Shown here: one piece after another, positions 3,403 to 20,325 of the stretch
Position numbering within the stretch: position 1 is the stretch's first letter
Layout: each line of letters starts with the position of its first letter
From: a virus
Strand: one strand, 5' to 3'
IMG/VR virus record: IMGVR_UViG_3300042731_003217
Location: 1 to 21,110 of that record
Length of the DNA: 21,110 nucleotides
Translations under genes and position numbers: made by a program
The notes under the pieces: model-generated
Database searches by the model: none
What the model was told of the DNA's origin: nothing
What the model saw: the letters and a program-made list of their open reading frames with translations, nothing else

Positions 3403-5523
3403 CTACTCATCAGACTGCATCAGTACAGTTAGCGAGACTCCGTCAACGCTATCTACAGTACCAGATAATTCCTGCCTGACATACCGAGGCGACCTTGTGC
3501 CCTTGGCCGCGAATCCTTCAATCGCCTGATCGGAGCTGAAGACCCTGGAGTCAGACACAATGCCAGAAGCTGGGGTTCGCTCGTCGATCAGAACTGCTGT
3601 CGCGGTTATCGTGCCAGTTGCCGGCGTGGCGGGGGCACCGGAAACCGGGTAGGTGAAGGTCGTTGCACCTGTCACCGTGATCGTCTTGATTCGATTGTAC
3701 TCGTTCTGGTCCGCGCCGATGATCTCGATCTTGTTATTGGTAGCGAGGTTGTGTGCAGCTGCCATCGTTACCGTAGCCACAGAACCAGAGCGCGTGATCG
3801 AGGTCACCGAGGCGTTGTATGGGAAAGGCCCGGAGCCTGCCATGCGAACCGTGACCGCTACCCTCTCAATTCCGGCCTTCGTGATGCCGTCCAGGCAGGT
3901 CACCTTTGTCGTGACTGGATCGGCCACGATAACGACTGTTGCGCCAGCTGTCCTGTATGTCGGGGTGTCACCACCAGAGACGTTGATCGTGCATGTCCCT
4001 GACGAGGCCGACACGTAGATCGCAGCCTGCTCTGTGGTGTCCGCTCCGTAGCCGTTGAAGAAGATGTTGGTCAGCGTGTAGCTCGTCGCCGTATCCAGCT
4101 CGATAGCGTGACCCTTCATCCCTCCACGAGTGTCCTGCTCGAAGGTTACATCGTGCAGGTCCGTGGTCGTGCCGAACGTGGGGTCCTGCAAGCAAGCTTC
4201 GCCTGGGTCCGCGCTCGTTACGATCTTGACGTTCTCGATATCCGCGCTGCCCTGTGTCAGAAGCTTGCACTCAAGGGTGCCCCCGTCCTGACTGGCTCCT
4301 GACGTGAACGTAATGTTGCGGTGATTCAGCCAAGCGCAAGCGTCCAGCGTGGCGCTGCCGCTGGTCCCGGTGACGACCATATCTGGTCGGCTATCCGTTT
4401 GCTTGGTGAGGTTGTGCGTCTCGGTGCCGCCGCTCTGGGATAGACTGACCTGGGAGGTGTCTGCGAAGCTTCCCTGGCGCGTCGTGTGGATGCTGATCGA
4501 GTCGTCAGTGACCTTGCGAACCCAGTAGTCCGTTGACTCGCTTAGCCCCATAGAGTCGGAGCCGCCGTCCTTGCTGTACTGAACGTGATCGCCGGTCTCG
4601 AAGCCATGGGCCGTGATGTCCAGCTCATCGTTGGTGGCGTCAACGTCGTCGTTGGTATGAAACTCCTGATAGACGGCCTCGCGGCCCTCGCCGACAAACG
4701 TGCAGCTGGTGATGGAGATAACCGAGCTGGCGTGCTGGAGCCCGATGGCCAGCCCGACCGTCCCAGCTCCGAATCGTCCGTCCGGATAGAAGATCTGTCT
4801 GTTGGTGTCGGTGAAGTCGGTCTCCGTGCTGCTTCCGATCGTCAACGTGCCGTAGACGAAGATCGCCCGGCCCCGTGTGCTGACCACGCCCCAGCTGTTC
4901 GCCTGGGTGCCCTCGTCCTTGGTGACGAAGTCCTCGAACTCCCCGTCCGGATCGGTTCCTGTTCCGGCCGTGAGTGTCATCCCCTTACCCACGTCGAAGA
5001 ACGACAGGATGTCATGGACGACGTTCTCGGACTTTGCTGTGCCGGCCATGTCTGCCCACCAGCCGTGGTAGTCCACCGCTGTCAAATCGGGCGAGCCCGT
5101 CGTGCTGTCTCGATATGCCACGAGGTTCGGATCGATCAACGAGATGATCCAGCCGCCGAGCTTGGGATAGGGGGTGTAGAGCCCGTGAAGGTAGTATTCA
5201 TAATAGGCGCTGGGTCCGCTTCCGATCTGCTGTGCTGTGCCCTTGGCAACCGTGAAGTCAATAGCTCCGTAGTTCGTGACCTGCACCAGAGACAGGACAA
5301 CGCGCTTGGTCGTGTTTAGATCCCGCGCTGTCGTGGCGTCGAAATCGACTCCGCCGGTACCGTTGCTGACCTTGTCCGAGATCGCGTAGTCGTTGCTGTA
5401 TACGAAGTCGCCTTCCTGGGTCGGGCTCTGCGTTGCGCCCCACTTATCCCAGGTTCCGCTATCGGTCTCCGATTCAGCTCCGGAGATGACCGTACCGTCG
5501 AATGCCACATTAACAACCGTCAC
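3403..5523 (-). CDS. Multi-domain beta-rich virion protein with Ig-like modules, 706 aa
   Basis: The start is taken as GTG at 5523, which overlaps the upstream stop as GTGA and has a GGGAGG site about 7 nt before it. A TTG further upstream at 5550 is in frame but has no such site. Residues about 300-372 contain the module 'DITAHGFETGDHVQYS...LSESTDYWVRKV...DSISIHTT'. Residues about 571-642 contain 'VTSITRSGSVATVTMAAAH...GADQNEYN...ATTFTYPVSGAP'. Both match beta-sandwich modules I know as repeats in phage tail, fibre and adhesin proteins. The middle (about 425-540) has short strands and DVTFEQD/TLTNIFFNGYG patterns resembling a beta-helix. Neighbours are similarly large beta-rich proteins. A fibre, adhesin or head-decoration role is inferred; no catalytic motif is visible. 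Confidence 0.8.
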   Translation of the reverse strand: MTVVNVAFDGTVISGAESETDSGTWDKWGATQSPTQEGDFVYSNDYAISDKVSNGTGGVDFDATTARDLNTTKRVVLSLVQVTNYGAIDFTVAKGTAQQIGSGPSAYYEYYLHGLYTPYPKLGGWIISLIDPNLVAYRDSTTGSPDLTAVDYHGWWADMAGTAKSENVVHDILSFFDVGKGMTLTAGTGTDPDGEFEDFVTKDEGTQANSWGVVSTRGRAIFVYGTLTIGSSTETDFTDTNRQIFYPDGRFGAGTVGLAIGLQHASSVISITSCTFVGEGREAVYQEFHTNDDVDATNDELDITAHGFETGDHVQYSKDGGSDSMGLSESTDYWVRKVTDDSISIHTTRQGSFADTSQVSLSQSGGTETHNLTKQTDSRPDMVVTGTSGSATLDACAWLNHRNITFTSGASQDGGTLECKLLTQGSADIENVKIVTSADPGEACLQDPTFGTTTDLHDVTFEQDTRGGMKGHAIELDTATSYTLTNIFFNGYGADTTEQAAIYVSASSGTCTINVSGGDTPTYRTAGATVVIVADPVTTKVTCLDGITKAGIERVAVTVRMAGSGPFPYNASVTSITRSGSVATVTMAAAHNLATNNKIEIIGADQNEYNRIKTITVTGATTFTYPVSGAPATPATGTITATAVLIDERTPASGIVSDSRVFSSDQAIEGFAAKGTRSPRYVRQELSGTVDSVDGVSLTVLMQSDE

Positions 5524-5966
5524 GCCGACGCCCTCCCGATAATGCGGCAAATGTTACGATTCGTACACGCCACAACAACTAGCGGCTTGCCTAGTCGGCG
5601 ACTCCAGATCTTGAGCAGTTTGATTGTCTCTGCATCGGTCTCTTGACCTGGGATAAGCAGCTTGGCCATCACCGAGTTGTCGATGGCCGGCTGCCTGTCA
5701 AAGATGATCCCCAGTTTGTCTGGGCGATCCTCGTCGCTGCCCATCCCTCGCAACCACAGGCACTCGTAGACCTTGCAGTCGTCTGGCCGAGTTGGATAGC
5801 AGGTGCAGTTGTCCGAGCCGACGGCCCGGTAATGGCTACCGTCTGCTTCCGGCTTCTCTGGTGGAGACTTGAGATGCTTACAGGGAACACCAGGACGTTT
5901 GTCCAACTCGGCAATGCCTGCATGGATGCAACAGGCTATGCAGTCGCCACAGTTTCTCACCGTCAC
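5520..5966 (-). CDS. Small CxxCxxCC cysteine-cluster protein (YkgJ-like), 148 aa
   Basis: The N-terminus carries C-G-D-C-I-A-C-C, the CxxCxxCC signature of the YkgJ/UPF0153 family of putative zinc- or iron-chelating proteins. It is followed by PCKHL and NCTCYPTRPDDCKVYECLWL, which keeps the family's later cysteines. I chose GTG at 5966 because it gives a GTGA overlap with the upstream stop, like neighbouring junctions, and starts just before the Cys cluster. A TTG at 6041 would extend the protein through a region already used by the upstream gene. No strong Shine-Dalgarno is seen, so expression probably depends on translational coupling. Family members probably bind metal, but their biochemical role is not established. 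Its place between two adhesin-like genes is unusual. A maturation or metal-loading role for a neighbouring protein is only speculation. Confidence 0.75.
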   Translation of the reverse strand: MTVRNCGDCIACCIHAGIAELDKRPGVPCKHLKSPPEKPEADGSHYRAVGSDNCTCYPTRPDDCKVYECLWLRGMGSDEDRPDKLGIIFDRQPAIDNSVMAKLLIPGQETDAETIKLLKIWSRRLGKPLVVVACTNRNICRIIGRASA

Positions 5967-7129
5967 GCCGCAAAGTACTGGACCATCGGCCGAGGCTGAC
6001 GCTCCATGAACTTGGGCCACATGAGCGGACGGCCCGACCAACCACCGTGGGGATCTACACTGATTCGATTCAGGTCGTCTGCGATCCCCGCATCAAACTC
6101 GAAAGCGTACTCCCCGTCCATACAGGCCGTAAGCCTCCCGTGCTGCGCGTGGAGACTGCACCAATGCAGCTCGTAATCCGACACCACCTTGTCCACGATA
6201 GCCTCTCCGCCGGTTTCACCTGTCGCGGCGGAGGTAGCACGGAACTTGCCGTTGCTGGCCCGAATCCAAGCGCTGACATGATCCGTGCTCTGGGCCCCGT
6301 CCTTGTAGACAGAGAACAGCCGAATGAAGGACGTGGGAATCCGTTTCGGGGTGATGATCGGTACCAGAACCGTGAACTCCCGATTGACCGTAGGCGCGAT
6401 CTCCCACACCACTGGATCGTCAGCTTGGCGGGTCTGGTTGCTGTCTACCGCATCGATCCGGCTGCTGGGATAGAGCCCGCTCTCGAGCTGGACGTGATCA
6501 AACCAGGTGTTGACTGTCGAGCCGTCACCCGTGCTGTTGAGGTTGCCGTTTGTCTCGATGCTGTAGATGAAGGTGTTGGTGGCCGCTGCATTGGCCAAAA
6601 ACACCAGCCAGGCAAAACACCAGGGAGGATCACCCCCCAAAGACTGGATTCCAGAGCCAACAATCGTTCCGATGGAATTACCAACCTCCACCAGGTCGAG
6701 GTCAAAGTACTTCCCTCTGCCACTGTTGCCATCGTACAAGGCGATATACTTGAAGTTGCCCTGCTTCGCGATGCACCAATAAGCGTGATTGACGCCCGAG
6801 AGGGTCTTGCCCAGATAACGTCTATGCTGCCCCGTGGTGTTATCAGCGATCAGCCCGTCAGCCGTCGCCTCCCCGTAGAGACCAAGGGCCCCATTGGTGT
6901 CTGTGGAGTCGCCAGCGATCCCTTTGGTCCACTGGTCAATCTGATTTGAGTAGGTCCGGAGGTTCGCGCGAATCGGCTCCAGCCTCAACCCGCGAAGGTA
7001 CAGGCCGCTTACCGGATCCCGCTGGGTCTCCCAGCGTAGCCAGTTGTGCCCCACCCGAAACTGACGTACTGGCTTGTCAGCTACGTTGAGCAGGTGCCTC
7101 TGAGCCGTGGCTGGACTGTTACGCGCCAT
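5963..7129 (-). CDS. Carbohydrate-binding/LamG-like virion protein, 388 aa
   Basis: The start is ATG at 7129, giving a TGATG overlap with the upstream stop; a longer in-frame reading to 7219 would overlap the preceding gene in another frame. Residues about 40-235 fit a module common in phage spike and fibre proteins. It begins RLEPIRANLRTYSNQIDQWT and ends with F-D-H-V-Q-L-E-S-G-L-Y-P-S-S-R-I, then TRQADD. This resembles the concanavalin-like carbohydrate-binding beta-sandwich with its typical QLE-G-PSS-TR-AD ending. The remaining ~150 residues (REFTVLVPII...DYELHWCSLHAQHGRLTACMDG) look like a second LamG-type sandwich. The upstream gene is also LamG-like. A role in binding host surface or environmental glycans is inferred from fold resemblance; ligand-binding residues cannot be assigned. 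Confidence 0.8.
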   Translation of the reverse strand: MARNSPATAQRHLLNVADKPVRQFRVGHNWLRWETQRDPVSGLYLRGLRLEPIRANLRTYSNQIDQWTKGIAGDSTDTNGALGLYGEATADGLIADNTTGQHRRYLGKTLSGVNHAYWCIAKQGNFKYIALYDGNSGRGKYFDLDLVEVGNSIGTIVGSGIQSLGGDPPWCFAWLVFLANAAATNTFIYSIETNGNLNSTGDGSTVNTWFDHVQLESGLYPSSRIDAVDSNQTRQADDPVVWEIAPTVNREFTVLVPIITPKRIPTSFIRLFSVYKDGAQSTDHVSAWIRASNGKFRATSAATGETGGEAIVDKVVSDYELHWCSLHAQHGRLTACMDGEYAFEFDAGIADDLNRISVDPHGGWSGRPLMWPKFMERQPRPMVQYFAA

Positions 7130-9372: not shown

Positions 9373-9401
9373 TTATGTAATCCCTCAGACCCCGTTAAGG
9401 G

Positions 9402-11112
9402 TTAAGGGATCTGCGCGTTGTCCAGCCCGCTGGACCCGGCGGCCCTCGCCACGTTCTTGTAGATCACGCTCTTGCCCGGCGCGTAGACCACGGGCGCGCC
9501 GTACAACAGCTGCATCCAGCGGATCGACGTGTCGATGGTCGCGAGCGGGATCTTGACCGCGGGTGCCAGCTGTTTGAACGAGAAATACTCCAGGTTCTGC
9601 TGGATCAAGAACGCGGTCGAGCAGCCCGGCAGGTCGGCGTTGAGGTCCGTCATGGCGGTCGTGGCGCCGGACCTGGCCACCGTCGTCATCAGACGCTCGG
9701 TGCCCTGGGCCCCGTCCTTGTCCGTCCGATAGATCTCGAACGCCGTGCCGGCCGTCGAGCCATCGGCCACCGTGAAAGTGACCTTCTCGCCGGCGGCGAC
9801 CGTGACCGGCCCCGTCAGCTGAAGCACGGCGCTCTTGCCGTACCTGTTGATGGCTCTGATCGAGTAGTAGTAGTCCCCGGCGTCGGAGGCGATGAACTGG
9901 GAGTCCGAATCCGCCGAGGTCGCGGGCGCCACGCTCTCCGTCGGCGCCGAGGGGATCTTCGCGGCCGGGCCGACTCCACCGCTGCCGACCAACGGGCCGA
10001 ATTGGATGAAGAGATCGGGGTTGAACTTGATGGGACCGAACTGGCTGTAGAAGCCCTGGATGTTCAGCCCGACCATCCCCTGCTGCCAACCCGCGGGGGG
10101 CAGGTTGATCCGCTCCGCCGGGTAGAACTGCTTGGCCAGGTCGGAGAAGGCGCCGTCGGCGCAGTAGAGGTCGGTCGCCCTCCCGTAGTTGGGCTCGGTC
10201 TTGACGATCAGGCAACCGTCGTTGAGGAGATCCTCGGTCAGCGGCTTGCCGCGCAGATCGACGATGTTGAGGCTCGCGTCGGGAGCTCCGTCGGTGATCA
10301 GCTTGAGCAGGCCATCCCACTGCACCGGGATGAGGCTGCTGTCGCCGAAGAACAAGGCGCGCTCGATCTGCTTGAGCAGCCACGCCATGCCGTTGACGGT
10401 TTCCTGCGCGATGACGTTGCCGTGCGCCGGTCGGATCAGGCTCATGACGTGGGTCACGGCCCGGGTCGTCCCGACGTACTTGATCACCGTGTACTGCCGG
10501 CTGTAGGTGCTGTCGTCCGCCTCGGGGAGATCTCCCTCGTCGATGAACGCCGCCACCCCGGAGCCGTAGCTCTCGAGCCGGTTGTACTCCTCGCATCAGT
10601 TACGCGGGCTGTTTAGACCCGCTCCCGAGGTTTCCCTCGGGTGTCGGACTATCTCACCACCCCAAAGGGTGCCGGGCACTCGTGGGACCGGTTATCGCTT
10701 GCGCTGCTCACGGTCCTAGTCTCTGAACCTTCCAGGGTACTGTTTGCGCTTCCCCTGGCTTGGCTGCGGATCGGCATGGGTGGCCGGCTGCCACCTTTAG
10801 CGTTCCCGCAATTCACCCGGTTATTCAAAACGAGTCTCCTCGTTAGGCCGCCAACTCGACGGTGTTGAACGCCGGAAGCTTGGTCACCGACTGCCACAAG
10901 CGGACATCGTCCATCTTGTAGGTGACCACCTTGAGGGTGTTCTCCAGACTCTCCGTCCGGAGCGGGAAACCCTCACCCGCTGCGGCCGACGGGGCGTTGA
11001 TGTCCTGACCCGCCGCCAGGGCTTTTCGGAGGTCGGCGACCTCCTCCCCGGACACCTGCCCGAACCCCTCGAGGCCGGCGTAGTCCTTCCAAGATACCAT
11101 GTCTCCGTGCAT
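9402..11112 (-). CDS. Major capsid protein, split by a group I intron (join 11112-10859 and 10593-9402), 481 aa
   Basis: Exon 1 (ATG at 11112 after a GGAGGA site) encodes residues 1-84 plus two bases of codon 85. Exon 2 (10593-9402) continues in the same frame. Joined, the junction reads LPAFNTV-EEYNRLESYGSG, which is continuous capsid-like sequence, and the length is exactly 482 codons including stop. The assignment rests on position after protease and scaffold, the N-terminal arm (KALAAGQ, GEGFPLRTE, KVVTYK), and core segments such as IKYVGTTRAVTH, AQETVNGMAWLLKQIERALFFGD and LYGAPVVYAPGKSVIY. Residues about 299-408 look like an inserted Ig/FN3-like domain (DAGDYYYSIRAINRYGKSA...TAFEIYRTDKDGA) that could project from the capsid surface. 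Without splicing, translation ends at a TAA inside the intron after 89 residues. The N-arm segment 30-69 is shared with the protease. Confidence 0.88.
10594..10858 (-). ncRNA. Group I intron (subgroup IA-like), 265 nt, no ORF, inside the major capsid gene
   Basis: Core elements can be read directly on the minus strand. The P2 hairpin is AACGAG-GAGA-CTCGTT (10844-10829). P3 is CCGGGT (10820-10815) with GCCCGG (10677-10672). P4 is TGCGGG (10810-10805) with TCCGCA (10770-10765), and a P5 hairpin is GGTGGC/GCCACC. P6a is CCAGGG/CCCTGG. The R element GTTCAGAGACTAG (10728-10716) gives P7 with TAGTC (10651-10647) in the S element GAGATAGTCC. An extra GGACCG/CGGTCC stem lies between P7 and P3', typical of subgroup IA. 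P8 is CACCC/GGGTG. P9 is CCCGAGG-GAAA-CCTCGGG, followed by a GCGGG/CCCGC stem. The 5' exon ends in U (10859), pairing with an internal guide GCGG (10851-10848) as U-G; the intron ends in G (10594). Removal restores the frame exactly. Confidence 0.93.
10906..11025 (-). repeat. Capsid N-arm copy of a 40-residue segment shared with the prohead protease
   Basis: Encodes residues 30-69 of the capsid protein. It aligns without gaps to residues 195-234 of the protease (12426-12545) with 29 of 40 identities. The identical blocks are KALAAGQ, GEGFPLRTE, LE and KVVTYK. The DNA is also visibly similar, for example around the CTCCGTCCGG and CTTGTAGGTGAC words. This indicates common descent of the two segments rather than chance. 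Confidence 0.9.
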
Positions 11113-11155
11113 TTGTTCCTCCGTGAATGTCCTTCTGACGGCCCGCTCAACGTCT

Positions 11156-11175
11156 AAAAGCCCGGGGTATCGGGC
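11156..11175 (-). terminator. Weak terminator-like hairpin between scaffold and capsid genes
   Basis: On the minus strand a five-pair stem GCCCG/CGGGC with a six-base loop is followed directly by TTTT. It sits 5 nt after the scaffold stop and 43 nt before the capsid start. The stem is short and the T run is only four, so partial attenuation or no effect are both possible. Confidence 0.35.
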
Positions 11176-11179
11176 GTGT

Positions 11180-12277
11180 CTACTTCGCGAGAGCCTCCTT
11201 GATCTCCGCGAGCATACTCTTGGAGATCTTGCGGCTGAGCTCGAACCTCGTGACGGCGCGGTCGATCGGCTCGCCGCACTTCGCGCGACCGCCGCTGTCC
11301 TTGTGCTGGGCCATGAGCAGGTGGAGCCCCTTGAAGATCTGCTCCTCGTTCAAGCCGATCTCGTTCGGCTCCTGGCCGGCGAAACCCTTCTCGAGGGGCT
11401 TGGCCTCGGCCGGGGTCGCCGCGCTCTTGCGCCCGACCGGCTGCTGCTCGACTACGCCCAGGCGCTTGGCCAGGGCGTCGTTCTGGGAGGACAGGCTCTT
11501 GATCATGTCCCCCTGGGACTGGATCACGTGAGCGACTCCGCGCATGGACTTGGCCAGGGCCTTGTTGAAGGTCTTCTGGTCGCCCATGCCCTTGGAGAGG
11601 TCCTCGCGCATGATGTCCAGGCCGGCGCCGACGGCATGGCCGAACTTCTCGAGAAACGGCGAGGCGTCGTAGTCCTCGCTGAACTCCTCGATGAAGACCT
11701 CCTCGAAGCCCTTCTCCATTGGCTCCTCGACCTCGCCACCCTTGTTGATGGCATCCTCCGGCTTCGGGTCGTTGGCCCCCAACAGGTCCATGAGCTCGAC
11801 CCGCTCGTCATCGGTCAGGGTGCCCTCCTCGAGCGCCTTGGCGAGCTCGGCGCGGCGGTCGATCTCGGGCTCCTCGACGCCCTCGGCGGCCGCGTCCAGG
11901 GCGTCCATCGCCTTCATCAGGTCGTCGGAGTCGATCTCGCCATCGTCGACCACGATCGGGGACTTCTCGGACTTCTCGGCCGTCTCCTCCTCGTCCTTCT
12001 CGTCCTCGTCCTCCTCGTCCTTCTCGGCCTTGTCGATCACCTTGCCGCCAGCCTCCGGGCGGAAACCGCCCTCGGCGCCGGACCGTCCCTCGCGCCCGGT
12101 CGGCATGGCCCCGGCGCCACCCTTCTCGAGGGGATCGGGCGCGGTGCGCTGGTGGTTCGCGGTTCTGGGCTGGGCGCCCTGGCCTTGCCGGCTTCCGCCC
12201 TTGAACATCGCCTCGGCCACCTCGGCCGCTTGCTCGTCTGCGGTTTTCGGCTTGTCGATCTCGTTCTCGTGTCCCAT
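11180..12277 (-). CDS. Putative capsid scaffolding protein, acidic, 365 aa
   Basis: ATG start with an AAGGAG site overlapping the end of the protease gene. The protein is highly charged and acidic. Residues about 85-110 are almost entirely Glu/Asp/Lys, followed by long predicted-helical stretches (SDDLMKAMDALDAAAEGVEE, KTFNKALAKSMRGVAHVIQSQG) typical of scaffolds. Short related words PLEKGGAGAM and PLEKGFAGQE occur in the N- and C-terminal parts. The basic helical C-terminus (FELSRKISKSMLAEIKEALAK) fits the usual capsid-binding end of scaffolding proteins. Its position between protease and major capsid protein is the classic scaffold slot. No enzyme motif is seen. The assignment is by composition and position; a minor internal head protein is the main alternative. 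Confidence 0.72.
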   Translation of the reverse strand: MGHENEIDKPKTADEQAAEVAEAMFKGGSRQGQGAQPRTANHQRTAPDPLEKGGAGAMPTGREGRSGAEGGFRPEAGGKVIDKAEKDEEDEDEKDEEETAEKSEKSPIVVDDGEIDSDDLMKAMDALDAAAEGVEEPEIDRRAELAKALEEGTLTDDERVELMDLLGANDPKPEDAINKGGEVEEPMEKGFEEVFIEEFSEDYDASPFLEKFGHAVGAGLDIMREDLSKGMGDQKTFNKALAKSMRGVAHVIQSQGDMIKSLSSQNDALAKRLGVVEQQPVGRKSAATPAEAKPLEKGFAGQEPNEIGLNEEQIFKGLHLLMAQHKDSGGRAKCGEPIDRAVTRFELSRKISKSMLAEIKEALAK

Positions 12278-12278
12278 C

Positions 12279-13127
12279 TCAAGCTGCTCCTTTCATCGCA
12301 TGTTGGATGAGTCTGTCGGCGAGCTCGCGGGGCGCGCCCGGGTATCGCTGACGGATCAGGGTCCTCGCCTGGCCCTTGGTGAGCCGGCGCTTTTTACGCT
12401 TGCGCTTCTCCTCGTCCTCTTCCTCGTCCTCCACCTTGTAGGTGACGACCTTTTCCTCCTCCTCCAGCTGTTCCGTCCGGAGGGGGAACCCTTCCCCTGG
12501 TGCTGCCCCTGGGTTGTTCACCGCTTGCCCGGCGGCTAGGGCCTTGTGAACACACTCGTCCGATGTACAACCAGGACATTGATCTTCCTGTTCGAGCACC
12601 ATCATGCTCTTGGCGATCAGGTCCAATCCGGTCTGTGTGTTGACTGGGCAATTAGTGATGGCAACGTTGCGGACAAGCGCTTGCGCAATGACCTTTCCGT
12701 CGCGGCCGGTACGTCGACGCACCTTACCTTCGATGGAATATCCAAGACGCCTATCGGTCTGCTGGAGCTGGTTGGCAAGATTCCAGATCTTGGAGGCTTT
12801 GTCGTGCCTGGGATCATCTCCTGGTGGCAGGAGATAAGCCTCCATCCGGGTCGCCGGCTTCCCGTAGTGGGTTGTCCGCTCGACCTTCAATGGATAGCCG
12901 ACTACGCCGTCCGTGTCTCTGGAATGATTATCATTTATCCAACCATGCTCCAGGAACGGATCGAAATCGAGACCTCTCTGGATCACGATTTCGCCCTGCT
13001 GGTCCTGGTGCTCCGTGGAGATGATCCCGGAGATGCGGCGCTCCTTGCCGGCCTCGCCGGCCTTGTGGAACACCTCGACGGGAACTTCGATTCGGAACGG
13101 GAACTCTTTGCAGGAATCAGGGGCCAC
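12279..13127 (-). CDS. Prohead maturation protease (XkdF/S78-like) with extended tail, 282 aa
   Basis: The N-terminal ~170 residues match the herpesvirus-assemblin-fold prohead proteases. RISGIISTEHQDQQGEIV is the opening strand block, FLEHGWINDNHS carries candidate catalytic His (H61 or H68), and LGYSIEGKV carries the candidate nucleophile Ser131. VRNVAITNCPVNTQT is the closing block. Such enzymes cleave scaffold and capsid arms during head maturation. The tail is unusual: a CPGCTSDEC cluster (184-192), then a 40-residue segment shared with the capsid N-arm (195-234), then a Glu-rich stretch and a KRKRKKRRLTKGQ basic helix. The start is GTG at 13127 with a poor ribosome binding site; no better start exists in frame before the upstream stop, so the N-terminus is less certain than the rest. 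Confidence 0.82.
   Translation of the reverse strand: MAPDSCKEFPFRIEVPVEVFHKAGEAGKERRISGIISTEHQDQQGEIVIQRGLDFDPFLEHGWINDNHSRDTDGVVGYPLKVERTTHYGKPATRMEAYLLPPGDDPRHDKASKIWNLANQLQQTDRRLGYSIEGKVRRRTGRDGKVIAQALVRNVAITNCPVNTQTGLDLIAKSMMVLEQEDQCPGCTSDECVHKALAAGQAVNNPGAAPGEGFPLRTEQLEEEEKVVTYKVEDEEEDEEKRKRKKRRLTKGQARTLIRQRYPGAPRELADRLIQHAMKGAA
12426..12545 (-). repeat. Protease-tail copy of the capsid N-arm segment
   Basis: Encodes protease residues 195-234, 29/40 identical to capsid residues 30-69 (10906-11025). In this copy the residues just before KVVTYK are Glu-rich and the segment runs into an acidic then basic tail, whereas in the capsid it continues into the core fold. Confidence 0.9.
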
Positions 13128-13194
13128 AATCCACCAATCACCCCGCCTCTCTCGGCTTACGCCACAGGCCCCTGGGGTACGTGAGGATTACAAC

Positions 13195-13434
13195 CTACGG
13201 TGATGTATTGGCGCTGTCAACATTTTTGCGGGTCCGGACGATCAGGCGCCTGCGGACCAATGCCTTCCGGAAGCTTTCGGAGAGCTCCAAAGGGAGTTGG
13301 ATCGTCGTCCCGCACTTGGTACAGACCCCCTCTGCCTGTGGACCGTCGAACGCCACAATCCGAGTCCTGACGCGGATCTTTCCGTCCTGACTCTTCTTGA
13401 CGAAGGCGGTGCGGCAGTTAGGGCAGTGGGTCAT
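13195..13434 (-). CDS. Small zinc-ribbon protein, 79 aa
   Basis: ATG overlaps the upstream stop as ATGA, implying translational coupling. The sequence opens MTHCPNCRTAFV and has a second knuckle VCTKCGTTIQLP near residues 37-47, so two CxxC pairs could bind one zinc ion in a ribbon. The remainder is basic (FRKALVRRRLIVRTRK), consistent with nucleic-acid binding. Length and layout recall small zinc-finger regulators in phages such as Mu Com, but I see no specific similarity beyond the Cys pairs. It could be a translational or transcriptional regulator, or a small structural zinc protein. A 67-nt stretch with no recognised element separates it from the protease gene. Confidence 0.75.
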   Translation of the reverse strand: MTHCPNCRTAFVKKSQDGKIRVRTRIVAFDGPQAEGVCTKCGTTIQLPLELSESFRKALVRRRLIVRTRKNVDSANTSP

Positions 13435-13943
13435 TTGGACCTGCGCATGACAGCAATGATTGCCGGGCGGGCCGCTGACATGGACTCGAACCGTCCGAGC
13501 TCGGGTCCTCCTACTTTGTCACCGCTGACGAGCACCCATTCATCACCGACCTTGTCGATCCTCAGCTCCCTGGTCCTGTCGTAGGTTTGCCAGCTGGCGT
13601 AACCAGGACCGCCGCTCATGTACTGCCAACCAGCATCGTCCATTTTTCGATTAAATCGCTGGATCTCGAGTTTCTTCTCGTGCTCTGGCGTGCGTTTCGG
13701 CTTGGCCTTCTCGTTCTCGGCCCAATTCAAGGGCTTCCACTGGTAGTTGTCGCCCTGGCCCTTGGCCCAGCCGTTTGGCGTCCGGCGCCAGCCACCACCA
13801 GGTGGGGGCTTGTGGCCACCCTTCGACGGCACAGTCAACCGCCGCTTTGGGGCAGCCGTGGGCTTGGCCGGGCCCCGGGACTCGATCTCGCGCTGTTCCG
13901 GCCGCCGAGCTCCCACCGTCAGCTTTGGCTGCTTCGCCTTCAT
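13431..13943 (-). CDS. Hypothetical basic protein, 170 aa
   Basis: ATG overlaps the stop of the large MuF gene as ATGA, and its own stop overlaps the next start, so it sits in a three-gene coupled set. The first ~100 residues are basic, Pro/Gly/Lys/Arg-rich and probably disordered (PKRRLTVPSKGGHKPPPGGG). The C-terminal ~65 residues look folded: DAGWQYMSGGPGYASWQTYD, then RELRIDKVGDEWVLVSGD and a final helix MSAARPAIIAVMRRSK. I do not recognise a family. The basic disordered half could bind DNA or RNA, or act as an internal head protein packaged with the MuF protein, but this is inference from composition and neighbourhood. Confidence 0.65.
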   Translation of the reverse strand: MKAKQPKLTVGARRPEQREIESRGPAKPTAAPKRRLTVPSKGGHKPPPGGGWRRTPNGWAKGQGDNYQWKPLNWAENEKAKPKRTPEHEKKLEIQRFNRKMDDAGWQYMSGGPGYASWQTYDRTRELRIDKVGDEWVLVSGDKVGGPELGRFESMSAARPAIIAVMRRSK

Positions 13944-16900
13944 GTTCTTGTTTCCTGCGGTGTTACGGTGAACCCTCCGAGCTCGCGTCGACGCGATCGG
14001 CGCTCCTGTTCATCGTCGAGCCACTCCCGGTTCCGCTCGGCGTTGCGGTCGATTTCAACGTCAACCTCGGGATGGTCCCGGACATATCCGTCGGTGTACT
14101 GCACGGGACTGATCGCGATGGCGTCCCTCTGCTCCTTTCGGTCCTGCTTCTTGCGCTTCTTCTTTTTCTTCTTCTTGCGCGCATCCGGGCCGTATGGGTG
14201 ATCCGTGGGCGGCTTGGCGGCGTAGGTGTTCTCGCCGGGCGTCCTTGCCGGTTTGCCAACGTGCCCCATGGTTCCGACAGGGCGGTCGATCCCTACCAGA
14301 CCAGCGGTCCCTGGGAACTGCTTCGCCGCCTTGATCAGGTCACGCCAGCGGCCGCGGTAGCTCTTGTCGTACCTGCCCAGGAGTGACTCGAGACCCGAGG
14401 ACTCCGGCGGGATGTAGCGCTCCATCTGAAAGACCTTGGCCTGGAGATACCGATCCAGGGTTCCGGGGTGCCTCTCTTTCTTTGGCACCTCGGCCAGGTA
14501 GTCGCTGACCCGCACCTGCTCGCTGGTGAGCTCGTGCTGCTTCCAATTCATGACCATCTGGTTGACGATCGAGCTGTCGAACTGCACCAGGTCGGCGGCC
14601 CACTGGCGGAAGGCGCCCTCTTTCTGCTCGAGCTCCAGATCGAACTCCTCCGGGTGCGCCTCAAAGAACCCCAGCCAAGCCTCGGTCTCGTCGAAGTCCG
14701 GATCGTCCCCAGCCCCAGCCCAGGCCCTCATCCGGGGCCCGAGCTCGGCCTCGGCCTCTCTGGTGAGCACGTCTTTCGCGCTCTTGATCTTGGACAGGCC
14801 GCGGAGGGCCTCGCGCGGAGACTTGGCGAGCTCGAGCACGCGCTCCTCGGGCAGGCCGCGGGCGCTCCAGTAGGCGGCCGCCACCAGCTGGATCGTCCTC
14901 TCGGCCATCTGTTCCGGCTGCGAGCCACCCAGAAAGTGGAGCTTGGGGAACCGTCCGGCCTTGTACAGCTTGGTCACGAACGGGATCATCACGTCCATCG
15001 GCATGGGCTTTTTCGCCATCGGCAGCCCGATCACGAAGTTGCCCTCGCCGAATGCCTCCGAGGCGGCGATGTAGTCCTGGGCCAGGCCCTCGGGGTCACG
15101 AGCCTGGAACGGCACGATGAACTGCACCCCACGTTTCAAGAGCTTCCGCACCCTTTTGGCATACTTTAGCCGCAATTTAGCCGTTTTTTCGGCGTCACCA
15201 ACACGATCCGGCGCCACGACTGTCACCGTCCCCGGTGGGAAGGCATCGGCCAGCCGGTCATAGGCTGCAAAGATCTTCCCGAAATCCAGCGCCCTGGACT
15301 TGACCTTGAGCCTGGCGAGGCGGGTTTCAGCCTTGGTGATCTCTTCCGGATCGGCTTTTTGACGACGGAGCTCCTTGATCTTGGCCTTGGCGCCTGGGAT
15401 GGACATCTGGGCAGCGAACCGCGGGTATTCGCCAGAATCCACCATGAGCTTGAGCCCCTCGCGGTGCGCGTGTTGGGCGAACCGGTCGATAGACTTCTTG
15501 CTCTTGGGGATCTCGTGGGCCGTGATCTGCACGCCTAGGTTGCGGCCGCCCAGGCCGCTGACCCCCTCGAGGGGGACAAAGCGGGCCCTTTCCCCTCCAC
15601 CTGAGACGTTGAGGTACAGGGTGGAAACCACCGCGATCGGGTCCGCCGCCATCTTGCGGTTGATCTCCTGCTGGCGGGCGAAGAACACGCGCTGGCCGCG
15701 GTGGGTTTCTGGCACCTTTGGCACCTTGAACTCGGGGTACTTGTACTCGTATCCCCCGCCCGGCTTGGGTCTGCGGAGAGCTCCCTTCTTGGAGGCGGGA
15801 GCCGGTTGCCAGACGAAGGCAGTCTGCTCTCCTACCTTGCGCGCTGGCTCGGCCTTGCGGATCTCCTTTCCGTCGCGGTAGTCGCCGCCCAAGGCGTGGT
15901 CCACGAACTGTTGGATCGGGATCACGGACATAGACCCGTAGAACTTCGGATTGTCGAAGTGCCGGAGGTACTCCCGCTTGGCTCGCTTGGCCGTCAGGAA
16001 GCCCAGCATCACCTTGTCTTCATCGTACTCCTTGAAATGTGGAGCTTTCTTCTGGTGTACAACGTAGGCGAACTTGGCGTCCTCGTGAGGACCCAGAAAC
16101 ACGTCGACGTGGTCACCGTCCGCGGCCTCCGTCATACGGATGTAGCCGTAGGGCCACCTCATGAGCGTTTCGCCAGTGGTCTTGGTGTGTGGATCGTACC
16201 AGTAGCGCTTGGAGCCGCGCTGGTTCTCGATCGAGATCGGCAGGCCGCGGAAGGTCGTCTTGTAGTGGAGCTTGCGACCCTTGGCGACATCCTCGCTGCG
16301 CACGAGCTCGGTGGCGGCCGCCACGATCGCGCCCGCCTCGCTGCCAGTCCGGCTGTAGGTCTCGAGGCCGGCCGCAACCGCCAGGCCGGGCCGAGTCTCC
16401 GCCAGGCCGGTGAGCGTCGTCTTCCACGAGCTCGCCCGCTTTGCCCACTTCTTGCGCTTGAGCACCTTCCCGACCGGGGTAGGTTCCTTCCCCGGGTGGA
16501 CTACCGCCGGGGTGAACGGATCAGCCTCAACGGTCGGGATCTGCTCATACCGCCCGGCCACCGCCGCGGTGATCGGCCCCCGATGGCCGGCGCGCCGGAG
16601 GGCCAGGGCCGCGCCCTCGATCGTGGCTCCGGAGGTGAAGACATCGTCGACCAGGAGGATCGGAGTGTCAGGGTGGACCCGGGAGAGGTCGGCCGCCATG
16701 GTCTCGGCGTGTTTCGCCGCGCCGAGGCCGCGCTTCCCCTTTTTCCGGCGAGCTCGGGCGCTCTCCACCGCCTTGGTTCGCCGCATCCCGCCGTAGGCTT
16801 GCCCAACCCCCTGGAGGGTGAGCTCGCGCGCTAGGGCGGTCAGGCGCGCCTTGCCGGCGCCGGCGCCCGGGATGGCGACCACCAGACCGCGAAAGCCCTT

Positions 16901-18019
16901 CAGGCCCGGCAACTGAGCCATGAGGGCGGCCGCCTGGCGGGTCGCGGCCTCGTCGCCCTTCTTGACGCCCTCGATCAGGTCCTGTACGCGGTCCCACTTT
17001 GGTGACAGCCCCCGGTGCAGGGTCCTCGAGGCATAGGCCACCGCCGAGCTCACGGGCCTCCAGCTGCCGTCGGCCTGCTTCTGATGCCAGCCCGATCTCC
17101 ACGCCCGGACCTCACCAGGCCGGGCCGCGGCCCCCTTTAGGACCTGGTCCGGTAATTTTTCACCTTTACTGATCTCCTCGAGCGGCACCAGGTCCCACGC
17201 ATCATCGAACCCCCAGCCGGCCGGCACGCGAACCGCCTGACACTGGCACCAGGGGTGCATCGCGCCCATCACGGGCTTCCACTCCGCCCGCTTCCGTCCA
17301 TAGTTGGCCACCCCCTGGCCCATCCACCACTCGACCGGCTCCACCCGGGGCTTGCCGTCAGCGTCCAGGTACAGCCGGAGGCAGTCCTCGCAGGCTGTCG
17401 GCTCGGGCATCTTCGCCATGCCCTCGCCCATGCCATACTTCTCGGCCAGGTTCTCGATGAACCCCATCTGGTGAGCCATGTGACTCTCTGTCGCGGCGAT
17501 CCGGCCCCAGTCCCGCGCCCAGTCGTCTGACATCTGGCGCAGCCGGGTGGTCAGCCGGCCGATCGTCTCGCGCCGGGCCGCAGCCTGCCCCGATTCGCTC
17601 TGGATCGAGTACCTGAAAGCCTCGGCCAGCTCCTGGTCAAGGTCCGCGGCGACCAGGGCCATCTCGCCCTCGTAGCGCGTGCCCAGGCCGACGCAGAACT
17701 GGCCGGCTCGCCCGGCCAGGAACTCGTAAGCTCGGCGCTCCTGGTCCGAGAGCTCCACCGGGTTCGCGGCCAGGTAGTTGATGAACTGCTGGTAGCTCAT
17801 TTGGGAGGCACCCGGGAGCTTCTCCATCAGGCGGCCGAACTCGAAGGCGTCGAGCACGATGTTGTGCAGGTCGTCGGGGTCGATGAACCCCTCGTCCACC
17901 AGGCGCCTGATCTCCTTTTCGGAGACCTCCATCCCGGTGGTACTGATCGCCAACGAGGTGGAGGCGTCACGGATGATATCCCTGATCTGGGCGATCTGTT
18001 CGGCCGTCAGCAGTGCCAT
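13940..18019 (-). CDS. MuF-type polyvalent virion protein: MuF + phosphoribosyltransferase + pyrophosphatase + TGT/DpdA-like, 1359 aa
   Basis: ATG start after an AAGGAG site inside the upstream gene's end. Domains in order: (1) residues about 1-270, Mu gpF-like head morphogenesis domain with CEDCLRL (210-216) and the family's closing HPWCQC (255-260). (2) about 376-490, ComF-like phosphoribosyltransferase with PRPP loop ILLVDDVFTSGAT (454-466) and an upstream PGAGAGK loop. (3) about 579-710, phage-type inorganic pyrophosphatase with GLPISIENQRGSKR and GYIRMTEAADGDHVDVFLGP (625-644); D634, D636 and D639 form the DxDxxD metal motif. (4) about 775-1060, TIM-barrel region resembling tRNA-guanine transglycosylase/DpdA: VDSGEY (860-865), VVAPD (934-938), IVPFQ (968-972), VIGLPM (996-1001) and LHFLGGS (1027-1033). 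The last 300 residues are unrecognised and end in a Lys-rich, hydrophilic tail. MuF proteins are packaged in virions, so the enzymes may enter the host with DNA. No TGT nucleophile Asp is evident. Confidence 0.88.
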   Translation of the reverse strand: MALLTAEQIAQIRDIIRDASTSLAISTTGMEVSEKEIRRLVDEGFIDPDDLHNIVLDAFEFGRLMEKLPGASQMSYQQFINYLAANPVELSDQERRAYEFLAGRAGQFCVGLGTRYEGEMALVAADLDQELAEAFRYSIQSESGQAAARRETIGRLTTRLRQMSDDWARDWGRIAATESHMAHQMGFIENLAEKYGMGEGMAKMPEPTACEDCLRLYLDADGKPRVEPVEWWMGQGVANYGRKRAEWKPVMGAMHPWCQCQAVRVPAGWGFDDAWDLVPLEEISKGEKLPDQVLKGAAARPGEVRAWRSGWHQKQADGSWRPVSSAVAYASRTLHRGLSPKWDRVQDLIEGVKKGDEAATRQAAALMAQLPGLKGFRGLVVAIPGAGAGKARLTALARELTLQGVGQAYGGMRRTKAVESARARRKKGKRGLGAAKHAETMAADLSRVHPDTPILLVDDVFTSGATIEGAALALRRAGHRGPITAAVAGRYEQIPTVEADPFTPAVVHPGKEPTPVGKVLKRKKWAKRASSWKTTLTGLAETRPGLAVAAGLETYSRTGSEAGAIVAAATELVRSEDVAKGRKLHYKTTFRGLPISIENQRGSKRYWYDPHTKTTGETLMRWPYGYIRMTEAADGDHVDVFLGPHEDAKFAYVVHQKKAPHFKEYDEDKVMLGFLTAKRAKREYLRHFDNPKFYGSMSVIPIQQFVDHALGGDYRDGKEIRKAEPARKVGEQTAFVWQPAPASKKGALRRPKPGGGYEYKYPEFKVPKVPETHRGQRVFFARQQEINRKMAADPIAVVSTLYLNVSGGGERARFVPLEGVSGLGGRNLGVQITAHEIPKSKKSIDRFAQHAHREGLKLMVDSGEYPRFAAQMSIPGAKAKIKELRRQKADPEEITKAETRLARLKVKSRALDFGKIFAAYDRLADAFPPGTVTVVAPDRVGDAEKTAKLRLKYAKRVRKLLKRGVQFIVPFQARDPEGLAQDYIAASEAFGEGNFVIGLPMAKKPMPMDVMIPFVTKLYKAGRFPKLHFLGGSQPEQMAERTIQLVAAAYWSARGLPEERVLELAKSPREALRGLSKIKSAKDVLTREAEAELGPRMRAWAGAGDDPDFDETEAWLGFFEAHPEEFDLELEQKEGAFRQWAADLVQFDSSIVNQMVMNWKQHELTSEQVRVSDYLAEVPKKERHPGTLDRYLQAKVFQMERYIPPESSGLESLLGRYDKSYRGRWRDLIKAAKQFPGTAGLVGIDRPVGTMGHVGKPARTPGENTYAAKPPTDHPYGPDARKKKKKKKRKKQDRKEQRDAIAISPVQYTDGYVRDHPEVDVEIDRNAERNREWLDDEQERRSRRRELGGFTVTPQETRT

Positions 18020-18257: not shown

Positions 18258-18640
18258 CAGCCGGCCAGGTAGTACGTGAGCGTTACCGTGGCACCGGTAC
18301 CGTTGCTGACGGCAATCGCCGTGAGCTCGCCCTCCCACATCACCTTTGCCTTCTGGCCACTCACCGGGACGAGCTTGAGCGAGTCGGATCCTCCGTTGAA
18401 CTTGAAGGAGAGCTCCCCATCGCATTCCATGTAGAGGATCTTGGCGGAGGTGACCCCGCCGAACTGGATCGTCTCGTCGGTGGCGCCGTCTGCAACCTCC
18501 GTCGTGCCAGACATCTCCTCCGTGATATCCGTCCGGGTGGTCGTTGTGGTCACGTCCTCGGTGCGCTGGAAGCCGATCTGCTTCTTTTCCGAGCTCAGCG
18601 CCGAGAGAATCTGAAAGGTCAACTCTGCGTAAAGGCTCAT
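18257..18640 (-). CDS. Small beta-rich head-region protein, 127 aa
   Basis: ATG overlaps the portal stop as ATGA. The first ~20 residues are helical, then comes a Thr-rich stretch (VTTTTTRTDITEEM), followed by an apparently all-beta part (AKILYMECDGELSFKFNGGSDSLKL...VMWEGELTAIAVSNGTGATVTLTYYLAG). The strand pattern resembles small jelly-roll phage decoration proteins. I do not recognise the family. The unusual place, between portal and MuF genes, may mean a portal-associated or head-decoration role; no catalytic motif is present. Confidence 0.7.
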   Translation of the reverse strand: MSLYAELTFQILSALSSEKKQIGFQRTEDVTTTTTRTDITEEMSGTTEVADGATDETIQFGGVTSAKILYMECDGELSFKFNGGSDSLKLVPVSGQKAKVMWEGELTAIAVSNGTGATVTLTYYLAG

Positions 18641-20325
18641 AGCTCAATCTCGTAGGTTCGGGTGTTGTTCGGTAGGGCCTTTTCCGTGACCCTTGCCTTC
18701 TTGATATCCGCCTCGAACCATTGGCCCTTGGCGGCCTCCATTGGCTGACCCGTTTCCTCCGGCCAACCTGGTCCTTCCTCTTCTGGGGCGCCCCCCTCGA
18801 GCTCGCCACCCGGCTCGCCCATCATCGCATCCCAGGCCCCGCCTTCCTCTCCCTCGCCCATGGCTGCCTGGTCCTTCTGCTGTGAGAACTGGAGCCACGT
18901 CGGGTCTAGGATCACGTCGCCCTTCCCATCCGGCAGCGGCGGTAGATCGTCCTCGGCTCGAATCTCGTCCACCGTCATCTTGTAGGAGACCTGCTTCTTC
19001 TCCTGGTCGATCACGTCGCTGGCATCCTTGGGGTTGATGCCGGTGAAGTTGATTTCCATGTCCGGCTCGATCGGCCAGATCAGGTAGCGGTTGATCCAGG
19101 TGGCCATCGACCGCAGCAGCGGCCGCAGACCGCGATCCTTGCTGCTCTTGACTCGCTGCTCCGCCGGCGCCTGGAACATCTGAGAAGACTGGCCGGTGTT
19201 GCCGTAGGTGAAATTGATCTCGGTCGGGTCGAATTGGTAGACACCGCAAGCGACCTTGATCAGGAAGTCGAAAAATGCCGAAAATTCCATGTCTCTGTTA
19301 CTGGCATGGAGATTGATCCACTGGAGCTCCTCGGCGTTGGTGATCGGGGTCCTCCAGGCGTTCTGCACGCCGTTGATCATCGCGTACCAGTGGCGCCTGA
19401 ATGCGTCGAGCTTGCTGTCCGGGATGGATCCCTTGAAGTTGAGCACGCCCTTGGTCGCGCTGCCCTGGCTGAAGAACCTGCGGTTGTACTCGAACGCCCA
19501 GAGCATGGCCGTGATGGTGGAGATCAGCATCTCGAGCTCGGAGAACCCGTAGCCGTTGAGGCGGATCCCGGTGCGCGGGTTGCGGACTCCGAAACAGAGC
19601 TCCTGGATCGCGAACTCGGCGATCACCACGTCATCATAGATCTGGACGTAGCGGGCCCGGTCCGGATCATCTTGCACGTCTGCGCCGGGCGGGAGGTCTG
19701 CGATCCGGATCGTCGCGGCGTCGACGGCATAGAAGTCCGCCGGATCACCTTTCCGGTTGGGCACCACCTCGAACGCGGCCTGATCGTAGGTGAGGGAGTC
19801 CCTGGTCAGCTTGCGAAGGAACTGCTCAAAGGTGTCTTTCCCGAGGGATTGGGAGCTCCCGGTGTTGAGGAGCCAGCGGGAGATATCGTCAGCGCGCTGC
19901 TTTTCTTTCTTCGTGGCGTTCTTGTCCTTGTCCCGGAGCACGATCTGGAAACCGGGCTCGCGGTCGTTGGGCTGGAGCACCGCGAAGTTGGCCACCTGGT
20001 TGATCCTGGTCTGGACGATCGCCGCAACCACTGGGACTCGGCGGGTCATCTCGGCCAGGGTATAGTAGGTGATCCCGCTCGGCCGATCCTTGTACCCCAG
20101 CTGGTCGATCACCGCGAACGGATCGTACAGCAGGGCCTTCGGATCGTCCTTCGCCGGCTCGGGCAGGCCGGCTGGCAGGTCTCCCGGGTAACCGTCCTGA
20201 TTTCGGTTGCGGGCAACGTCCGCAGCGGCCTTTTCGAAGCTATCCGCGGCTACGTTGCCCACGAAGCCCAGGGCGCCGCCCAGGGCGTCGGAGACCCTGC
20301 CCCGTAGATTGTCAATCACGCCCAT
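18637..20325 (-). CDS. Phage portal protein, 562 aa
   Basis: ATG start with a GGAGG site. Length and sequence fit the HK97-type portal family, which forms the dodecameric ring through which DNA enters and leaves the head. Recognisable parts are YTLAEMTRRVPVVAAIVQTRINQVA near residue 86 and the central SLTYDQAAFEVVPNRKGDP. Others are YGFSELEMLISTITAMLWAFEYNRRFFSQGS and GVYQFDPTEINF followed by a GQSSQMFQAPAEQRV stretch. These match the clip-wing-stem pattern of portals. The C-terminal ~80 residues are Gly/Glu/Pro-rich and probably disordered (GEGEEGGAWDAMMGEPGGEL). The stop overlaps the next start, coupling it to the small protein downstream. Terminase genes would be expected to the right, outside the window. 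Confidence 0.92.
   Translation of the reverse strand: MGVIDNLRGRVSDALGGALGFVGNVAADSFEKAAADVARNRNQDGYPGDLPAGLPEPAKDDPKALLYDPFAVIDQLGYKDRPSGITYYTLAEMTRRVPVVAAIVQTRINQVANFAVLQPNDREPGFQIVLRDKDKNATKKEKQRADDISRWLLNTGSSQSLGKDTFEQFLRKLTRDSLTYDQAAFEVVPNRKGDPADFYAVDAATIRIADLPPGADVQDDPDRARYVQIYDDVVIAEFAIQELCFGVRNPRTGIRLNGYGFSELEMLISTITAMLWAFEYNRRFFSQGSATKGVLNFKGSIPDSKLDAFRRHWYAMINGVQNAWRTPITNAEELQWINLHASNRDMEFSAFFDFLIKVACGVYQFDPTEINFTYGNTGQSSQMFQAPAEQRVKSSKDRGLRPLLRSMATWINRYLIWPIEPDMEINFTGINPKDASDVIDQEKKQVSYKMTVDEIRAEDDLPPLPDGKGDVILDPTWLQFSQQKDQAAMGEGEEGGAWDAMMGEPGGELEGGAPEEEGPGWPEETGQPMEAAKGQWFEADIKKARVTEKALPNNTRTYEIEL

Follow-up and report, generated by a model that had tools for sequence, protein, structure and literature searches.

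The window analysed here is a 21,110-base stretch of DNA from the IMG/VR virus record IMGVR_UViG_3300042731_003217. A large gene (P0001) in this window encodes a 1359-residue protein with known homologues and lies among phage head genes. The preliminary description had proposed a single frame of 1359 codons at this position, leaving the strand unstated. The frame is real and contains all the quoted motifs, but it is read on the minus strand; on the plus strand the same interval contains stop codons. The features of the locus are as follows, residue numbers referring to the large protein.

18637–20325, minus strand: portal protein gene (PF04860, 9.9e-20; PHROG portal, 2.9e-51), upstream of the large gene
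13940–18019, minus strand: the large gene, encoding a MuF polyvalent protein (1359 aa)
17180–18019, minus strand: MuF-like head domain, residues ~1–280 (28-sequence alignment; family profile match to a PF04233 protein)
17240–17257, minus strand: HPWCQC motif of the MuF-like domain, residues 255–260
17060–17083, minus strand: inter-module linker QKQADGSW, of the same type as a linker in related locus L003
16475–17044, minus strand: ComF-like phosphoribosyltransferase (PRTase), residues ~326–515
16736–16783, minus strand: basic loop RRTKAVESARARRKKG of the PRTase
16622–16651, minus strand: PRPP motif VDDVFTSGAT of the PRTase, residues 457–466
15875–16285, minus strand: polyvalent-type inorganic pyrophosphatase (InPase), residues ~579–715 (PF18823, E 1.9e-29)
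16097–16120, minus strand: DGDHVDVF, residues 634–641, holding the InPase DxDxxD metal motif (DGDHVD)
15737–15760, minus strand: inter-module linker GGGYEYKY, directly before the barrel and the same in L037 and L040
14714–15640, minus strand: TGT/DpdA-like TIM barrel, residues ~794–1102 (profile, model and six-sequence alignment)
15428–15445, minus strand: barrel motif MVDSGE, residues 859–864
15194–15220, minus strand: barrel motif VVAPDRVGD, residues 934–942
15098–15115, minus strand: barrel motif VPFQAR, residues 969–974
14924–14938, minus strand: barrel motif HFLGG, residues 1028–1032
14867–14881, minus strand: AAAYW, near the barrel's expected nucleophile position
14300–14713, minus strand: conserved helical region behind the barrel, residues 1103–1240
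13943–14299, minus strand: conserved C-terminal tail with a GTMG motif and a Lys-rich run, residues 1241–1359
13431–13943, minus strand: small 170-aa gene after the large gene, with a linker-like PPPGGGWRRTPNGW stretch
12279–13127, minus strand: head maturation protease gene (phrog_1028, 2e-39)
11180–12277: scaffold-like gene
10624–10878, minus strand: group I intron (RF00028, 65 bits, E 9e-15) that splits the major head protein gene

The protease, scaffold-like and major head genes all lie downstream of the large gene. Exon 1 of the major head protein gene is contained in 10843–11112 and exon 2 in 9402 to ~10600, and both match phrog_752. The order of portal, MuF protein and head protease is kept in relatives; of the related loci, 25 carry a portal homologue, and the small gene that separates portal from MuF recurs in them too. 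The gene order therefore places the large gene in a phage head module. The 170-aa gene on its other side has no homologue detected in the related loci and no family match in Pfam or PHROG.

A MuF domain had been proposed from the HPWCQC motif, and comparison of profiles bears this out. The Pfam Phage_Mu_F model itself gives a weak match in 6 of the 28 family members. The profile of the family matches a PF04233 protein with a P value of 6.6e-6 (hhalign), the match including the HPxCxC end, and relatives at 57–60% identity adjoin portal genes. The profile match, the motif and the position between the portal and head-protease genes support the assignment of the N-terminal domain as a divergent MuF domain. 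In one relative (L008), an intein/Hint-type insertion at 4209–5972 interrupts the conserved HPxC motif itself, between HPH and CRCQ; insertions of this type are also found in the MuF domains of L055, L057 and L032. The same L008 gene has an in-frame TAG (5970–5972) between its MuF part and its InPase-barrel part. No obvious start codon follows directly, and the InPase lies past the TAG in the continuing frame. The TAG may reflect a mutation, an error or readthrough.

The pyrophosphatase module, previously suggested by its DGDHVDV motif, scores 102.7 bits against a PF18823 cut-off of 26.8, so far above it that its identity as an InPase is certain at the level of sequence. The same module matches the terminal part of chain L in PDB entry 9b41 (phmmer, E 4e-10), a chain that bears the name 'gp19 Portal'. 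In that chain, as in BcepF1-type portal-InPase fusions (PMC5512222), a head protein ends in the InPase, but neither PRTase nor barrel is matched there. A role in clearing PPi or in attacking nucleotide signals has been suggested for such InPases (PMC5512222).

The PRTase module is more divergent. On its own it matches PF00156 weakly (0.022) and the PADLOC ShosT model at 2.2e-6. The corresponding domain of L040, 42% identical to it, passes the Pfam cut-off (PF00156, 6.8e-7), and in the window the acidic pair and the PRPP loop are intact. The identification first made from VDDVFTSGAT thus holds through this relative and the intact motif. A DNA pattern search for the PRTase motif and a PRTase-only scan gave no match. 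PRTase-profile matches in L003 and L004 were rejected, being linker matches and not PRTases. MuF-PRTase fusions have been reported, their role being called enigmatic (PMC5512222).

A scan with the MuF profile recovered 32 viral loci and one locus from a Planctomycetota MAG. Together with the window and L008, these form 27 clusters at 95% identity, hereafter the distinct MuF relatives. They are alike in the N-terminal MuF domain and in the C-terminal tail but differ in between. The tail is common to L002, L003, L008, L031, L032 and L059, most of which are without the window's cargo. The InPase is found in 24 of the 27 relatives (it is absent in L042, L056 and L058), mostly without PRTase or barrel, and the barrel in five, plus L011, whose contig begins after any MuF domain. 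A Mom-like GNAT occurs in three, two of which have a barrel (L003 and L040). The PRTase occurs in two, the window and L040, both with a barrel; this association (chance ~0.03 by simple sampling) is suggestive only. The helical region 1103–1240 accompanies the barrel in L037, L040, L003, L008 and L011. Further cargo includes RadC in L040, a C39 peptidase with PAPS_reduct in L003, ddrB-ParB in L042, L043 and L045, DarA_C in L043, and DUF5661 in L033 and L039. A PolyA_pol head, which is tRNA nucleotidyltransferase-like, recurs as MuF-InPase cargo in L041, L046, L049/L051, L055 and L057, and possibly acts on tRNA ends.

The module order is MuF-RadC-PRTase-Mom-like-barrel-InPase in L040, MuF-barrel-InPase in L037, and MuF-C39-PAPS_reduct-InPase-Mom-like-barrel in L003. 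A search for other MuF proteins with the same domain order had been proposed; it recovered the same trio of PRTase, InPase and barrel in L040, but there the order differs and RadC and the Mom-like GNAT are added. Short linkers such as GPRGGK(W/I/V) and GGGYEY recur at the borders between modules. The first of these appears in many MuF loci, for example L002, L031, L040, L046 and, in three places, L043, and is a candidate hinge, recombination site or protease-processing site. The possibility that the frame is an assembly chimera of separate genes was rejected, since both protein ends recur in relatives and the modules are also found linked, in a different order, in L040. Two marks of phage polyvalent proteins are present, namely at least two effector domains on a virion carrier and exchange of domains, here among the 27 relatives. 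The window protein is a modular phage polyvalent protein.

Two readings of this architecture can be weighed on the survey. MuF proteins are known as toxin carriers (PMC5576092), and the protein might accordingly be a polymorphic toxin whose C-terminal part poisons rival bacteria, with the neighbouring gene encoding immunity. This is very unlikely: the variable modules are internal with the conserved tail after the cargo, each chain contains several enzymes, and nothing points to a cognate immunity gene, as the gene at 13431–13943 has neither a homologue detected in the related loci nor a Pfam or PHROG match. The preliminary description had instead read the trio as one metabolic pathway, in which the PRTase makes or uses a nucleotide, the InPase pulls the reaction and the barrel exchanges a base into tRNA or DNA. 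That the three modules occur together twice, in differing orders, and that the active-site motifs of PRTase and InPase are intact would fit such a pathway. Yet nearly all relatives have an InPase but neither of the other modules, and the barrel lacks a PRTase in L003, L037, L008 and L011. Because the InPase persists in nearly all relatives while the cargo changes, it is most simply taken as part of the common chassis rather than as a partner of the PRTase and the barrel.

The barrel is known from six members, the window, L003/L004 (one type), L008, L011, L037 and L040, all in phage contigs; the others are 38–49% identical to the window. Sequence searches against Pfam, PDB and annotated phages gave no match, and no homologue was found in bacterial genome contigs. 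None was found in 294 genomes from the phylum of the L059 MAG either, in a search run without a positive control. AlphaFold prediction on the six barrel sequences gave a TIM barrel, with block pLDDT mostly 80–97 over model residues 50–290. For the trimmed model, the top 50 VIA-align matches listed are all TGT (Z 12.2–12.8 over ~200–220 residues, rmsd 3.3–5.4). On this model the fourth region does not appear to be an unrelated fold, and TGT is its best structural match by VIA-align.

Fold alone is not proof of TGT kinship, because both the untrimmed model and Foldseek mix barrel families. Before trimming, the model matched deoxyribose-phosphate aldolase (Z 12.4) and TGT (Z 11.6) without separating the two; TGT was better discriminated once the model was confined to the domain and two more sequences were included. 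With the trimmed model, Foldseek placed sugar epimerases above TGT by E-value. These results would be expected if the barrel were another TIM-barrel enzyme, of aldolase or epimerase type, resembling TGT through the common fold only. That alternative is quite unlikely. The profile of the barrel matches that of nine phage DpdA proteins at P 4.3e-5 (hhalign probability 69%, significant but modest), as against 0.14–0.24 for DeoC, DHDPS and cellular TGT, and the best P among 100 column-shuffled DpdA profiles was 0.035. Phage DpdA itself matches cellular TGT weakly in the same comparison (0.014), so the missing match to cellular TGT is no argument against kinship. The aligned similarity to DpdA extends over strands 2–4 and includes the motifs DSG and D-x-I-G-D-P-x-x-T. 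Given the DpdA-specific profile match, the aligned motifs and the TGT structural matches, the barrel very probably belongs to the TGT/DpdA superfamily by descent, as its motifs had initially suggested. Among viral proteins, the top fold match to the barrel is BFVD A0A6J5LU57 (Foldseek E 4e-8, 19% identity), a protein of 877 aa from an uncultured phage whose name refers to an ART-PolyVal domain; judging from this match between models, the barrel may occur in further polyvalent proteins.

Catalysis by TGT relies on Asp102 and on Asp280, the nucleophile of the initial step, and the enzyme is characterised by a zinc site of Cys3-His type (PMC6165067). The six barrel sequences all keep an Asp102-type DSG, an Asp following strand 4, a QxR following strand 5 and a strand-7 His. 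No invariant acidic residue is found among the six in the stretch matching the TGT nucleophile (Z. mobilis D280). In the alignment with DpdA, the segment YSVDSS, which from the TGT fold and its own invariance is likely to hold the DpdA nucleophile, is gapped; the last strand, strand 8, is absent from the model prediction. The barrel has no Cys3-His zinc site, and the only five Cys of the protein are all in MuF. With neither an Asp at the nucleophile position nor a zinc site, canonical base exchange is not supported by the sequences and the model, although the barrel is TGT/DpdA-like in fold and profile. Either another residue replaces the nucleophile, or the barrel binds without exchanging.

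The missing Asp also weighs against the single pathway, as does the genetic context. No QueC, QueD or FolE gene was found in ten records (mostly fragments, and the host may supply the base), including the 109-kb record of the barrel-bearing L037. These records, in which no preQ0-synthesis gene was found, give no support for a standard phage dPreQ0 system. Of the pathway as first proposed, the recurrence of the trio in L040 stands; with the InPase belonging to the chassis and the nucleophile Asp, zinc site and preQ0 genes missing, the pathway as a whole is unlikely. A degenerate barrel could instead serve as a reader or decoy, recognising marks of the 7-deazaguanine type that belong to Dpd-like or BREX-related defences of the host. 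Residues of the base-pocket type are invariant at the strand ends while the nucleophile-position Asp is absent, and QTRT2, a non-catalytic partner subunit of TGT with altered catalytic Asp residues (PMC6165067), offers a precedent. Against this, polar residues are invariant at many positions (E, D, D, Q, R, H and Y), which suggests chemistry beyond binding, and we consider a reader or decoy possible but rather improbable.

Comparison with known systems places the protein among the polyvalent proteins of Iyer et al. 2017 (PMC5512222), which likewise join a MuF carrier to effector domains and whose listed modules include the InPase and the ComF-like PRTase. TGT has no occurrence in the main text of that paper, whereas the window adds the TGT/DpdA-like barrel and its relatives the Mom-like GNAT. 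No TGT in polyvalent proteins was found in the literature searched (subscription papers lay outside it, and absence is not proof). MuF-InPase and MuF-PRTase architectures are thus already known, and the TGT/DpdA-like barrel as cargo appears undescribed in the literature searched.

Phage DpdA, for example that of Enterobacteria phage 9g (PMC6884629), shares with the barrel the strand 2–4 profile and the two motifs given above; the barrel differs in lacking the YSVDSS Asp segment, in being fused within a head protein and in having no preQ0 genes in the 10 records searched. Bacterial tRNA-guanine transglycosylase shares the TIM fold and the D102-like Asp, but at ~10% identity, and the barrel is without its conserved D280-position Asp and zinc cysteines. 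For BREX-related capture (BRC) systems, DNA modification has been proposed as the task of a GNAT/TGT pair whose members are sometimes fused (PMC12839542). In relatives, the barrel and the Mom-like GNAT form a comparable pairing, an independent parallel likened by domain pairing alone; the BRC pair acts in host defence, the window's barrel lies in a phage head protein.

We favour, at a probability of roughly 55%, a head protein delivered by the virion with exchangeable base- or nucleotide-modifying cargo, probably directed against restriction or nucleotide-based defence. The MuF domain and the conserved tail would anchor this tailed-phage protein in the capsid beside the portal. Its interior consists of exchangeable enzyme modules on recurrent linkers, which would be packaged in the head and carried in with the DNA; delivery of this kind is suggested by the MuF domain and the gene order beside the portal. 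The InPase, as the standard module, would remove pyrophosphate or cleave a nucleotide-type pyrophosphate, and the ComF-like PRTase would couple a free base to PRPP or break such a bond. The barrel would bind a guanine-like base through the Asp of DSGE, the Asp of APD, the Gln and Arg of QxR and the His. Its target may be the entering DNA or host tRNA, in which a base would be altered or recognised without the usual covalent Asp. A common theme of base or nucleotide modification at DNA entry is proposed because the barrel keeps company with the PRTase, the Mom-like GNAT, a PAPS-reductase-like PP-loop domain and RadC, and restriction or nucleotide-based defence would be its probable target. A narrower version, in which the barrel represents a new virion-delivered TGT/DpdA-like family that lacks the covalent Asp and, with the PRTase and in relatives the Mom-like GNAT, modifies or strips bases of DNA or tRNA at genome entry, is tentative and well short of even odds.

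DpdA-type phage base-modification systems are expressed from phage genes after entry. Base-modifying enzymes carried in the head would act on, or protect, the first genome copy, at a stage too early for newly expressed genes. This set of modules offers concrete candidates for the treatment by a phage of its own DNA or of host tRNA before transcription, and the barrel would be a new cargo family of polyvalent proteins, TGT-like and with an unexplained active site.

A second polyvalent protein was observed in L002. Encoded at 9375–16079, directly after a short MuF-InPase gene, it is 2234 aa long and combines an SNF2/strawberry-notch helicase with LPD1.
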